Of a DNA stretch of 64,000 nt, positions 7,332 to 16,644 are shown in pieces. The notes below the pieces were generated by a model. It saw nothing but the letters and a program-made list of their open reading frames with translations. It was not told the DNA's origin and made no database searches. This stretch comes from an uncultured Acidobacteriota bacterium (GTDB lineage: Bacteria; Acidobacteriota; CAIWXX01), in NCBI GenBank assembly GCA_903916735.1, contig CAIWXX010000082.1, forward strand, positions 1 through 64,000, read 5' to 3'. The translations under genes were made by a program, and so were the position numbers. The stretch's first letter is position 1. Each line of letters begins with the position of its first letter.

Positions 7332-9389
7332 TTATAAGCGCGGGAAATAAACGTCATAGACGCTTTCATGGGGATCCCACCACGTCGGTCGAGAGTAGAA
7401 CCATTTCTGAGTATCGCCCCAACCCCAATTGCCCAAATATCCGCAGACATCGGATCCGCTTCGATCAATGTAATGCACAGCCTCAATGCAAATGTAATGG
7501 TTCAAATTGATATACATGATCACCGGCCTGTCATTCTTGATTTCGTCTCTGATCGCTCTCCATTTGGCACGTTCTTCTCCTCTCCATCGGACGCAACTCG
7601 CACTGTCGTACCCTTGATCCTTTGCATACTGGATTCCATCGGGCATATTGCCGGGCAAAGTGGCACCCCATTTGTCATCCCCCGATCCCCCCCAGAATGT
7701 ATCCATGATTTCAGCGAGATCCCACATGACGGAACAGATGGTGCCGATGTTGGAGTCGCTAGCATTAGTACGCGTTCTCAAATCCAGTCCGCCGAACAGT
7801 GCGGTCTTGCCCTTGAATTGTCTCCAGTAGGCGTACACCATGGCCCAAGCTGTGCTTCCGCATCCGACAGGATAGTCATCCCGATTATGGGGCTGAGTCC
7901 ATGATGGAAGATGCCAATTCCAGCCCGTATCGCCCCAGGGTCCGTAGTTGCTGTCGGTTGTTGTATTCCGGTTATAGTCATACCACCAGCTGCCATCCGT
8001 CGGCCGGTAAACGGCGATATCATCACGACGCCCATCTGCATCAAAATCTCCACATATCGGCAAGTCCCCGTTCTCAGCCCAGTAAGCAACGGTGGCATCT
8101 GTTGTTGCATTGTGCGAATAGTCATAGAACCAGCGTCGCTCATTTGAGCGAAAAACACCGACATCGTCGCAGTAGCCATCACTATTAAAGTCCCCGGCGA
8201 CGGGAATATCATTCGTGACGCCCCATGGACCTCGTGCAGCGTCGGTGGCCGTCCCGTCATGGTTATAATTGTAGTACCACATTTTTGTCGATGGCCGGTA
8301 CACGGCTATGTCATCTGTGAATCCGTCACGGTCAAAATCTCCAGCCAGAGGAAGATCCGTTGTGGCACCCCAATTTGCCAATGTACTGTCAGTGTCGCCG
8401 TCATGGTCCATGTCGAAATACCATGTTCGGACCGAGGGGCGGTAAAGGGCCACATCATCCTCGTATCCATCACTGTCAAAATCGCCCGCGACCGGAATGT
8501 CTTCAATAGCTCCCCAGTTATTCCTCGTCTCGTCCGTCCTCCCATCACGGTCATTGTCAAACCACCAATCCCGATCGCAGTGGTTGTAAATACCCACATC
8601 ATCTCTTCGGCCGTCACGATCAAAATCCCCGGCGACCGGAAGACCGCCATCAATTCGAAAGATATACTTAAGGAAATATCTCGTATTGGTGTCACCGGAT
8701 AGAGGTTGGATTACCTTCTTACCAGATATTTCTCCGGAAGCATCGGCCGTCGGAGCCGAATTTTCCTTCTGGCGGATGTAGTACTCATCGACAGATTCCT
8801 TCAGGTAGAAAGGGACACAATGCTTCTGCCTGGCGGCATTCCGGTAGGACCAATCAAATTCTTCGACAACTTTCCGCAACTCCCCGGATCCTGATCCGTC
8901 AAGCACTCTGACATGGGGGGATTCATCAAACCCCAGCGTCGCGACAATCCTATAACCATTGCCCGACTTTCTGCATGCCGCGCTCCTGAACCAGTCATAT
9001 CGTAAGATTTTGAGATCGTTGTGCCGCGTCTGTTTGGCATACATTTCGGTCAATGTCAGGCCTCGTGCCGTCAACTCCGGCACCTCAGTATCGGAATTAT
9101 TCACATTAACGAGAATATAGCCCGCATCCTTCAGGTCCGTCTTGACCTTGACTTCATAGTAGGAAACTTCGTCGATCCCTGGCATATAAACCGGGTAAGC
9201 TGCTACCGGGCGCGAATCAGCCGTCCAGCCTGATTTCCCCTCCCGGGTAAAATCGTCCAGCACTGCCTGCGCGATGGAGATCGCGTGATCCCGCACGTTT
9301 GCCGGACTCGCATTGCAGGGGTTGCCCGATAATGTCAGAACGGAAAGCAGCAGTGGGATTCCAATTTGCGATACTCTCATGGCCTTCAT
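7332..9389 (-). CDS. Secreted FG-GAP/VCBS-repeat protein with C-terminal papain-like cysteine peptidase
   Basis: This is a 685-residue exported protein. Residues 1-28 form a signal peptide. Residues 30-230 resemble the prodomain-like region seen before streptopain-type peptidases. Residues 250-490 hold five repeats of about 48 residues built on PVAGDFDRDGRRDDVGIY and WWFDNDRDG, the calcium-binding FG-GAP/VCBS blade pattern. The C-terminal domain has a papain-like nucleophile, VGCGSTAWAMVYAYW (Cys510), a His in NLNHYICIEAVHY, and Asn/Trp in LGNWGWGD, suggesting a C39- or C10-like peptidase. The start is preceded by AAAGGAGAAAAATAA. The likely role is an extracellular protease with a partial beta-propeller for binding or calcium stabilisation. 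Putting the blades between prodomain and peptidase is an unusual order. Substrate unknown. Confidence 0.75.
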   Translation of the reverse strand: MKAMRVSQIGIPLLLSVLTLSGNPCNASPANVRDHAISIAQAVLDDFTREGKSGWTADSRPVAAYPVYMPGIDEVSYYEVKVKTDLKDAGYILVNVNNSDTEVPELTARGLTLTEMYAKQTRHNDLKILRYDWFRSAACRKSGNGYRIVATLGFDESPHVRVLDGSGSGELRKVVEEFDWSYRNAARQKHCVPFYLKESVDEYYIRQKENSAPTADASGEISGKKVIQPLSGDTNTRYFLKYIFRIDGGLPVAGDFDRDGRRDDVGIYNHCDRDWWFDNDRDGRTDETRNNWGAIEDIPVAGDFDSDGYEDDVALYRPSVRTWYFDMDHDGDTDSTLANWGATTDLPLAGDFDRDGFTDDIAVYRPSTKMWYYNYNHDGTATDAARGPWGVTNDIPVAGDFNSDGYCDDVGVFRSNERRWFYDYSHNATTDATVAYWAENGDLPICGDFDADGRRDDIAVYRPTDGSWWYDYNRNTTTDSNYGPWGDTGWNWHLPSWTQPHNRDDYPVGCGSTAWAMVYAYWRQFKGKTALFGGLDLRTRTNASDSNIGTICSVMWDLAEIMDTFWGGSGDDKWGATLPGNMPDGIQYAKDQGYDSASCVRWRGEERAKWRAIRDEIKNDRPVIMYINLNHYICIEAVHYIDRSGSDVCGYLGNWGWGDTQKWFYSRPTWWDPHESVYDVYFPRL

Positions 9390-13025: not shown

Positions 13026-13109
13026 CTCTTTGGCTCAGCCCTAAGGCTTGTCAACCTTCCTCTCAAACACGAACCGGAATTGTGGTAGATTAATGAGCGG
13101 AGGTTTCAC

Positions 13110-14108
13110 GTGAAGAAGCTTGCGATCATGTTGAGTCTCGGTTGGGCCGCGGCCGTGATGCTGCACGCCGCTGATCAGACTGCCAAGCCGGCATTTGCCA
13201 TCTACTTCAACAGCGAAGTGCGCGGCGCCGTCGATCCGTGTGGTTGAAAGGTCAGGCCACTGGGAGGTCTTCCCAGGAGAGCAACATTCTTTAAAAAGGC
13301 GGCTGCAACAATACCGGCAGCCATCAAGGTCGACATCGGGCGGCTGCTGAGTTCAGCCGGCCCCGCCAATGAGGCGCAGACGCGTTTCGTCGTCGACGCC
13401 ATGGGAAAACTCGGCTATAACCTCGCCAACGCCTGCTTTGGGGATATCGCCGAGGATCCCGCATTCTTCATGCAACTTCGGGAAAAAGCGCAATTCCCAT
13501 TTATTTCTACAAATGTAGTAAAATCGACAACCTCGGAACCTTACTTCGCACCCTATCGAATCATCAACATCGGCGGGCCCTGGCGAATCGCGTTTCTCGG
13601 CGTGAGCGCCCCACAAACCAAACCCATCACGCTTCCTGATGGGACGACTCTTGTCGCCGCCGATGTCATCCAATCCGTTGGGAAATATGTCAAACTGTTA
13701 CGCTCACAGGTGCATCTCATCATAGTCCTGGCTCATATCCCATTTGATCAGGCGAGCGCTCTGGCGAAAGCATATGATGATATTGACATGATTCTCGGCG
13801 GGGACGGCACCCTCGTTCACTTTGAACCTCAATTCGTCAATAACGCTTACATCATGTACGGCGGGCAGGAAGGCAAGTATGTCGGAGTGATGGAAGCCTT
13901 TCCCAGCGGGAATGTTCTGGACAAGCTCGGTTGCAGGATCGTCGCACTCGACACAGCCTTCGCGGATGACCCGGAAATGGCCGAGTCGCTGAATAATTAC
14001 CGCACCGAGGCGCAGAAGAAATTCGGGAAAAAAGTCTTACAGTTTGAAGTCGGCGATGAATCTTCTGCGGCGCCGGTTCCTGATTCACCGCAATCTCAGA
14101 AAAAGTGA
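13110..14108 (+). CDS. Probable selenoprotein: exported UshA-like metallophosphatase-fold protein with Cys-Gly-Sec motif
   Basis: The GTG at 13110 has GGAGG eight bases upstream and opens a 332-residue frame containing one TGA at 13245-13247 (residue 46). Before it come a signal peptide (about residues 1-20) and AFAIYFNSEVRGAVDPCG; after it comes KVRPLGGLPRRATFFKKAA. The frame then stays open to 14108. From memory, UshA-like 5'-nucleotidase relatives have a PCGC element followed by a GGLxRRA stretch here, so Sec replaces the second Cys. A SECIS-like hairpin begins 12 bases after the TGA. The rest (FPFISTNVV, LLRSQVHLIIVLAHIP, DIDMILGGDGT, YIMYGGQEGKYVGVMEAF) follows the metallophosphatase N-domain order, but several usual metal ligands (for example the GNHE motif) are absent. 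A nonsense mutation is the alternative, but the conserved frame and stem-loop make it unlikely. The next gene overlaps by 4 bp. Confidence 0.85.
13245..13276 (+). promoter_or_regulatory. Bacterial SECIS element for UGA recoding
   Basis: The TGA is at 13245-13247. A stem-loop, CTGGGAGGTCTTCCCAG at 13260-13276, has a perfect 6-bp stem and a GGTCT apical loop. The loop begins exactly 18 nt after the TGA. E. coli fdhF has the same spacing and the same GGUCU loop bound by SelB, as I recall it. The stem also falls on codons for LGGLPRR, so it must satisfy protein coding as well. Confidence 0.85.
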
Positions 14109-14509
14109 GAGCTCTTCTCGATATTCTCCTGAACGCCGGCCGGGGGATGGTTGACGAAACGGGCTTTCATCTGGCTCTCATTCGCGGCGCCTGGCGCCGT
14201 ACCGTCGGCGAAACTATCGATTCGAAGACAAAAATCACGAGCTGGTCGGGGAGAACATTGCAGGTCGTCTGTGCCGACCGGACCTGGCAAAAACAGCTTG
14301 ACTTGTTGCGCCCAGAAATTCTCAGAAAACTCGATTGCCTCGGGCGGCAGGCTCCACTCGATATCCGCTTCACCGTCGAAAACGATCCGCCGCGCCCGAA
14401 GAGAATTCGAGGCGGACGGCCGAAGAATATCAGTCAGAGTCGGAAAGCTCAGACCAGTGTGGTAAAGAAGAGTACGGTGTCTGCATCAAGGAAAAAGCGG
14501 GTAAAGTAA
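14105..14509 (+). CDS. DUF721 (DciA-like) protein
   Basis: This 134-residue basic protein has the DUF721 core: WRRTVGETIDSKTKITSWSG, then RTLQVVCADRTWQKQLDLLRPEIL, a KH-like fold. The C-terminal 40 residues are Lys/Arg/Ser-rich and probably disordered. The related DciA proteins load or operate the DnaB helicase in bacteria lacking DnaC. Here that role is an inference from the family only. The GTG start overlaps the stop of the selenoprotein gene (GTGA), so the two are translationally coupled, an odd pairing that suggests only shared transcription. A strong terminator follows. Confidence 0.75.
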   Translation: MRALLDILLNAGRGMVDETGFHLALIRGAWRRTVGETIDSKTKITSWSGRTLQVVCADRTWQKQLDLLRPEILRKLDCLGRQAPLDIRFTVENDPPRPKRIRGGRPKNISQSRKAQTSVVKKSTVSASRKKRVK

Positions 14510-14615: not shown

Positions 14616-16391
14616 TTATTTCGCGACGAGGAGTGATGCGAGAGCGTCGGCGTGAATCGTTCCAACACCGGTGCAAAGATCGTAGCCTGGTGTGGCTTTG
14701 TACTTGACGTTGTTACCGACCTTGATGTCATGATAGGCGGATGCCGCGGATGTGCTGAAGATACTGTAAAGCGCAGGATTGACGAATCCCAGATACGACT
14801 TGCCGGCTGCCTTCCGCTGCTCGTTGATCCCTGCGAAAAAGCTGGCAATGGCTGGACTGCTGGCTGAGGTTCCTCCGAAGAAATAGGCGCTGCCTCCAAA
14901 AACGACATAATAGCCGGTCTTGGGATCAGCATCGAGAGAAACGTCGGGCACACAACGGTTGTTGCTACCTGGCACGCCCAAACCGGTCTGCCAGCTTGGC
15001 TTTGTGAAGATCGTGGACAATCCGCCACCCGTGCTGGACCCGCTTGGCCTGAAGCCATTTTTGGTTTTCCAAACGGTTTCATTTTTCCACACCGGATTGC
15101 CGCCGCTCAATTGAGTGAATAACGCTGTGCCGCCGACTGCCGTCACATACGGTGATGAAGCGGGCCATGATGGTTGAGGAGTCTTATCGCCCCATGGAGC
15201 TCCGCCTTGCGATCCATCATCACCCGAGGAAGCACAAACGGTCAACCCCATAGCCGCTGCATTCTGGAATACCGCCTTTTCGGCATTGCTGATCGAATTG
15301 ATCAGTTCGCCGATTCCAAAGCTGAGTGATGCCACTTTCGGACCTGTTGGTGTTTTTCCATCCACTACAAATTTTTGTCCGGCTTTCAAGGTGCTATTAG
15401 GATAGGCATCCTTGGCGATGTAACATGTGACTCTTGGTCCGGTCGACCGAGGCGCCTTGTCGACAGGCATGCCCTGAGATGCGAGCGCCGTCGAGACGGC
15501 AGTGAACGAGGATGAATACTGCGTATCCAACGCCAACTCCGCATCTTCGCCACTTTCGCTGAACGCCGGCGGGCTGGCACCGACGCCGATAACTTTCACA
15601 TTGTTGATGCTTTGCGCAATCCCCCATGTCGCCCAAAAATTCTGGAGATCCGTTTTGTTGATATTGGAATGCCACAGGATGACCGCGACATGCTGCCCGG
15701 TCCCATCGTTGACACCCGCATGAACTGTCAATTGATAGATGCTTTGAAATTCAGGTGGACCGTAGGGAGGTTTCCCGTTGGATGCAGTCTGGAAAGTGCG
15801 CTTGTTCACCTTCTCCCCTCGAATCGAGTTGGTGTGATAGCGATACATCGTATCGAGCCCGATAATGCCGTCGACCGCATCCGCGAGAGCGGCAGGAATA
15901 GAGGGCGTTTCCGCGGCGGCGTAGGCTTCACGCCCTTCGAATCGATAGCGATTCATGGTAACCCCGAATGCATTCTCGACGGCGCGGGCACTTGCCCGAG
16001 CGCCAACCGTCAAGCGATTTTCCCAGGCATCAGTAATCGTGAACCCGTTGTGCCGGAGAAATTCCAGCACACGTGCATAATCACCGGCTCGCGGCGAATA
16101 TCGATCCACAAACTGTTCCATCGTCAGGTACCGGTGATAGACCGGCGATGCCGGATCCTGCACATCCACCAGGAACTGTTCGAGATCCGCCTGATTGTGC
16201 ACTTTGAGAGATATCGTGATATCCATCGGTGTTTCGCCGGCGAGCTGACCAAGATACTCCGCTCTTTCGACAGCTGTGATTCTGCTTCCTGGAAGCATCC
16301 CCTTCGCATTCGTCTTCATGACTCGGAAGGACATGGCTGTGGATAAAAGAACCCCGAGTGCCATGGCAACCAATAATTTTCTGCGCTGCAT
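14616..16391 (-). CDS. Secreted S53 family serine-carboxyl peptidase (sedolisin/kumamolisin type)
   Basis: This 591-residue acid-active endopeptidase is made as a secreted proenzyme. A signal segment spans about 1-20. The Pro-kumamolisin activation domain covers about 35-185 (PVYHRYLTMEQF, ENAFGVTMNRYR). The catalytic domain has the Glu/Asp pair in GEDAELALD (Glu285, Asp289), the oxyanion Asp in SSGDDGSQGG (Asp391) and the nucleophile in GGTSASSPA (Ser509). The calcium site is formed by DIKVG and GYDLCTGVG near the C-terminus. I chose the ATG at 16391 because AGAGAGGAAA precedes it; the frame is open 20 codons further. Such peptidases are abundant in Acidobacteriota and serve in protein scavenging. 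Convergent with DUF721 across a shared terminator. Confidence 0.92.
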   Translation of the reverse strand: MQRRKLLVAMALGVLLSTAMSFRVMKTNAKGMLPGSRITAVERAEYLGQLAGETPMDITISLKVHNQADLEQFLVDVQDPASPVYHRYLTMEQFVDRYSPRAGDYARVLEFLRHNGFTITDAWENRLTVGARASARAVENAFGVTMNRYRFEGREAYAAAETPSIPAALADAVDGIIGLDTMYRYHTNSIRGEKVNKRTFQTASNGKPPYGPPEFQSIYQLTVHAGVNDGTGQHVAVILWHSNINKTDLQNFWATWGIAQSINNVKVIGVGASPPAFSESGEDAELALDTQYSSSFTAVSTALASQGMPVDKAPRSTGPRVTCYIAKDAYPNSTLKAGQKFVVDGKTPTGPKVASLSFGIGELINSISNAEKAVFQNAAAMGLTVCASSGDDGSQGGAPWGDKTPQPSWPASSPYVTAVGGTALFTQLSGGNPVWKNETVWKTKNGFRPSGSSTGGGLSTIFTKPSWQTGLGVPGSNNRCVPDVSLDADPKTGYYVVFGGSAYFFGGTSASSPAIASFFAGINEQRKAAGKSYLGFVNPALYSIFSTSAASAYHDIKVGNNVKYKATPGYDLCTGVGTIHADALASLLVAK

Positions 16392-16644
16392 GAGTTTCCT
16401 CTCTTTCAAATCAGACTCATTTTTGTTCATCGTTTTCCTTGTGCGCCTCACAATATATCCAATTATACTTCAGCCGAAAGACAATAGCCGGAGCCCATTG
16501 GAGTCTCCATACGAAAAGCTGTGACGGAGTCACCATCAAAACGGCTGCAATGAGTGCAAAGAAAATGCACGCTGGAATGAAAAGTGAGCGGGAACATCCG
16601 CCGGCATTTATGATATGCTGGCGCGTTGGCAGGAGGATGGATTC

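Follow-up and report, generated by a model that had tools for sequence, protein, structure and literature searches.

The window, i.e. the whole stretch of 64,000 nucleotides analysed here from an uncultured Acidobacteriota bacterium, almost certainly contains a genuine selenoprotein gene of a known UshA-like family, as judged by comparison with homologues. What is new here is that the predicted SECIS-like hairpin of the window lineage is displaced from the site used by most of the homologues with selenocysteine (Sec). The best explanation as a whole, which we consider rather probable, is a selenoprotein of a known family that has lost its hydrolase chemistry and has an exported redox or sulfur role. 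The gene adds a deep, haem-less lineage to this uncharacterised selenoprotein family.

The in-frame TGA and its decoding

The UshA-like gene (13110-14108, plus strand) encodes 332 residues, from a GTG start at 13110 to the stop TGA at 14106-14108, and is preceded by a Shine-Dalgarno sequence (GGAGG, 13099-13103, plus strand) recognised by reading the sequence. Codon 46, directly after Asp-Pro-Cys-Gly, is a TGA (13245-13247, plus strand), and 286 sense codons follow up to 14105, with LGGLPRRA next to the Sec46. None of 2000 base shuffles left 286 codons open, although this is a weak null. The earlier note had described the start, the Shine-Dalgarno site, the TGA and the open frame, and on re-reading its coordinates proved correct. 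It also took the protein to be exported, which is probably right: residues 1-22 (13110-13175, plus strand) make up a hydrophobic N-terminal helix, modelled as residues 2-24, which is a putative signal peptide.

If the TGA were a true stop or a sequencing error, the gene would be broken, or expressed from a downstream ATG at 13401. A mechanical ORF finder yields indeed only this shorter frame (13401-14108, 235 aa). Against this, a second genome has the same TGA and the same hairpin, substitutions show a codon-position bias on both sides of the TGA, and 50 homologues have a TGA at the corresponding codon, making a stop or an error highly improbable. For sequencing error, which the earlier note had raised as a test, the independent genome gives the answer. 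Both the pseudogene and the sequencing-error readings were ruled out by the comparison with homologues.

The machinery for Sec decoding, which the earlier note had proposed to look for, is encoded in the draft genome (5.4 Mb, 98.7% complete). SelA (405 bits), SelB (328 bits) and SelD (318 bits) score above the curated cut-offs, and one tRNA-Sec (76 bits) above the gathering score. SelB and the Sec-tRNA would read UGA 46 as Sec, directed by a GGUCU hairpin 18 nt downstream. SelD is itself Sec-containing (locus L018, G000 contig C55:140576-141499). Its in-frame TGA (SDCAGU) is accompanied by a hairpin with a GGA triloop 17 nt downstream, an internal example of Sec decoding.

The sole close relative found, from a groundwater MAG of an “Acidobacteria bacterium” of the same family (G001, JACPPM010000040.1), has 51-53% protein identity and shares the TGA, the PCGU motif and the 17-nt hairpin with the window gene. 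The contig scan that gave this one relative used two patterns, one of which had Cys codons where Sec would be and was blind to Sec genes there. When 396 genomes of the phylum were searched with a profile, 309 had matches, and many of these are probably ordinary nucleotidase relatives. Of the 81 motif-bearing homologues of the phylum, 50 have TGA at codon 46 and 31 have TGC or TGT, in line with the Cys-Gly-Sec motif and PCGC relatives described by the earlier note. The comparison shows UGA 46 to be under selection as Sec or Cys, with a matching predicted SECIS. An IQ-TREE phylogeny, with good support for 52 of its 78 inner branches, needs 12 changes between Sec and Cys, and it groups the window gene with its JACPPM010000040.1 relative on a single deep branch with full support. 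These 12 changes in the tree of one phylum, with a SECIS that comes and goes to match, make the family a clear case of Sec/Cys exchange.

The set of 81 sequences was chosen by motif, and the invariance of C44, G45, G52 and G53 in it is partly by construction. Other fetched profile hits, the 13 loci outside the set, were therefore checked for C-x-C/U, which is present in 59 of the 60 fetched hits. One strong family member, L120, is without both of the C-x-C/U residues (EDPGLARAPGGG). Another locus, L161, is a Sec variant with C-D-U in place of C-G-U.

Placement of the SECIS-like hairpin

The hairpin of the window gene (13260-13276, plus strand) consists of a perfect 6-bp stem (CTGGGA at 13260-13265, TCCCAG at 13271-13276) and an apical GGUCU loop (13266-13270), located 18 nt after the UGA. 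It is identical in L024/L053. The 17-nt element has a folding energy of -8.0 kcal/mol and, as the earlier note had suggested checking, it forms when the 43-54 nt downstream of the TGA are folded to their minimum free energy (MFE). The published bSECIS criteria ask for a loop of 3-9 nt with G in the first two positions, a stem of 4-16 bp, a distance of 16-37 nt from the UGA and an MFE of -7.5 or lower (PMC13188914). With its five-base GGUCU loop, 6-bp stem, 18-nt spacing and -8.0 kcal/mol, the window hairpin falls within all of these limits.

The SECIS of E. coli fdhF also has a GGUCU loop 18 nt past the UGA, and the earlier note was right about this likeness in loop and spacing. The stem sequences differ, however, and the window hairpin encodes the LGGLPR of a protein unrelated to that of fdhF. 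With both strands of the window counted, there are 2558 TGA triplets, and the one at codon 46 alone combines GGTCT at +18 with a stem of at least 6 bp. The general folding energy of the region is unremarkable (z -0.26 for 54 nt, -0.04 for 43 nt), therefore the significance of the hairpin rests on its place and its conservation. The codons of P50-R56 are seven out of seven identical to those of the 52%-identical relative, compared with 48% of the codons of conserved residues elsewhere (p about 0.006, or 0.0005 with residue-specific rates).

Sec homologues usually have their hairpin at the L-A-R-R-A codons, as CUGGCCC-GG(C/A)-GGGCCGG, and its GGC or GGA loop typically begins 28 nt after the UGA, or 25 nt in genes that are one codon shorter here. 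At this canonical place 44 of the 50 Sec genes have an uninterrupted stem of 5 bp or more, versus two of the 31 Cys genes. In the window gene and its relative the canonical hairpin is gone. The GGUCU hairpin over L-G-G-L-P-R is found instead, about 10 bases nearer to the Sec codon than in most relatives. Four further Sec genes do not have the hairpin at its canonical place. Loops of GGUCUG or GGUU are found at 18-19 nt in L144 and L157, another kind of hairpin at 23 nt in L128, and only a weak stem in L163. The tree needs at least three to four changes in hairpin place.

The new stem of the window lineage is built by the codons of Leu51 and Pro55, and position 55 is Ala in 66 of the 81 homologues. 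We infer that the stem drove these two residues. There is an even chance, in our estimate, that within this one family the hairpin moved repeatedly between L-A-R-R-A (usually 28 nt) and L-G-G-L-x-R (18-19 nt), imposing changes on the protein. If so, the family would offer a natural series for the tolerance of SelB to loop position and for RNA signals shaping protein sequence. The displaced hairpin makes the evolution of SECIS elements inside coding sequence testable.

Genome G345 has two paralogues, L141 with Sec and L136 with Cys (TGT). L136, one of the two Cys genes with a canonical stem, retains a 7-bp hairpin and adjoins the Sec copy of the same genome on the tree. This is apparently a recent change from Sec to Cys with a relic SECIS.

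Family, fold and the putative active centre

To the earlier note, selenoproteins of this type seemed undescribed. This was wrong, because an UshA-like CxU family was reported in 2008, with 76 sequences, in the selenoproteome survey of the Global Ocean Sampling (GOS) (PMC2398784), and these COG0737 CxU selenoproteins have been listed since in later reviews and modelled as NCBIfam NF041198, UshA_like_PCGU (see also PMC9312934, PMC13188914). The proposal of an UshA-like fold, on the other hand, held. NF041198 is the best NCBIfam match of the window protein (E 1.7e-47, residues 17-262); the score is 162 bits, where the cut-off is 275, and the match covers only profile positions 12-264 of 519. Full-length acidobacterial members reach 260-267 bits, also just under the cut-off, which thus narrowly excludes the phylum in general, rather than the window protein as foreign. 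Matches to SoxB (TIGR04486, next best in NCBIfam; E 3.4e-20, 72 bits, cut-off 550) and to NF049981, UshA-like family 2 (40 bits, cut-off 140), are also below their cut-offs, and a Pfam search of the protein gave no domain.

Within the UshA-like PCG(U/C) group the window protein is a divergent form without haem. It shares with the COG0737 CxU/NF041198 proteins the C-G-U (C44-G45-U46) followed by GG-L-x-R-R, the alternation of Sec and Cys, and a presumably exported UshA-like domain. Unlike NF041198, it is without the C-terminal part, and its SECIS is placed unlike that of most acidobacterial relatives. Family 2 is similarly short, without a C-terminal domain and with a similar N-terminal fold, but it is listed with a CxxU motif, in contrast to the CxU of the window protein.

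The AlphaFold2 model (pLDDT 87, pTM 0.84, Sec modelled as Cys) has as best Foldseek matches in the PDB the E. coli nucleotidase (3ive/3ivd), with SoxB (2wdf, 4uwq) close behind, at a TM of about 0.72. The N-terminal metallophosphatase fold is thus shared with both UshA/5'-nucleotidase (1ush, 3ivd) and SoxB. Unlike these, the window protein has no C-terminal domain, which in UshA binds the nucleotide, and its metal ligands are mostly lost. The nucleotidase metal motifs were mapped through profile alignments onto the family alignment, rather than taken from a metal-bound structure. Of the dinuclear ligands D, H, D, N, H, H and H/Q, one histidine (H209) is kept. In the alignments, the D of motif I corresponds to E36, its H to R38, the bridging D to R78, the GNHE region to C109-F-G-D, and the GHxH histidines to D232 and T234. 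Among the 81 homologues the nucleotidase ligand positions vary, while C44 and Sec/Cys46 are retained. The description of the protein as metallophosphatase-like, made in the earlier note, thus holds for the fold and not for the metal site, because the ligands are mostly gone. Metal-dependent phosphatase activity has quite likely been lost.

The window protein is most likely an exported thiol/selenol redox protein and not a phosphatase. The mechanism would involve a 5'-nucleotidase/SoxB N-terminal fold, presumably exported, that has lost most of its dinuclear metal site. The working centre would be Cys44-Gly-Sec46, beside the conserved GG-x-x-R loop, as a site of thiol/selenol redox chemistry or sulfur transfer. 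We lean slightly toward redox or sulfur chemistry at this C-G-U.

Alternatively, the Sec/Cys pair could be a metal or haem ligand, in a metalloenzyme rebuilt in the old nucleotidase pocket. The location of C-x-C/U, immediately behind what used to be metal motif I (D-x-H-G), would fit. So would residue 36, with D in 38 and E in 17 of the 81 homologues, and D75, kept in 67 of the 81. However, there is no conservation of the H, the bridging D, the N or the GHxH histidines, and Sec is rare as a structural metal ligand outside Mo, W and Ni enzymes. Such a rebuilt site is unlikely.

Similarly doubtful is a SoxB-like role in sulfur metabolism, in which the Cys/Sec would carry or attack a sulfane or sulfonate group. 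The substrate of SoxB is a sulfonate bound to cysteine, and SoxB ranks second among the NCBIfam matches and near the top of the fold matches. Yet SoxB needs for its hydrolysis a metal site that is degraded in the window protein, none of the neighbours examined was recognised as a sox gene, and the similarity may reflect shared ancestry only.

Haem domains and gene neighbourhood

Support for the thiol/selenol redox reading comes from a C-terminal multihaem domain, usually with four CxxCH (Cytochrome_C554, PF13435), in 44 of 80 homologues. Its presence changed about 10 times on the tree. In about half of the relatives, electrons would pass between this fused c554-type tetrahaem domain and the Cys-x-Sec/Cys. 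The window gene is a haem-less short form, in which a separate partner may take over this electron role. Neither the surroundings of the window gene nor those of the eight other short forms inspected contained a multihaem cytochrome gene. For a family whose name comes from UshA alone, the combination of C-x-C/U and tetrahaem domain, together with the erosion of the phosphatase site, offers a concrete redox hypothesis.

The neighbours are housekeeping genes (DciA, Maf, RuvX), which give no redox pointer and count against the redox reading. A DciA (DUF721) gene follows directly (14105-14509, plus strand; PF05258, E 2e-9), its GTG start overlapping the UshA-like stop by 4 nt. DciA follows the UshA-like homologue also in L053, L090, L094 and L104, hence in five genomes including the window. 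Common neighbours are Maf (18 of 26 loci) and RuvX/MltG (11 of 26), and TatC flanks the gene in others. This conserved neighbourhood suggests vertical inheritance and not function; the locus is thus probably an inherited chromosomal one.

Elsewhere in the window, both on the minus strand, 14616-16451 encodes a kumamolisin-type (S53) protease precursor, with matches to Pro-kuma_activ and Peptidase_S8, and 7332-9389 a secreted-looking protein of 685 aa with FG-GAP-like repeats and, by eye, a C-terminal cysteine-protease-like region.
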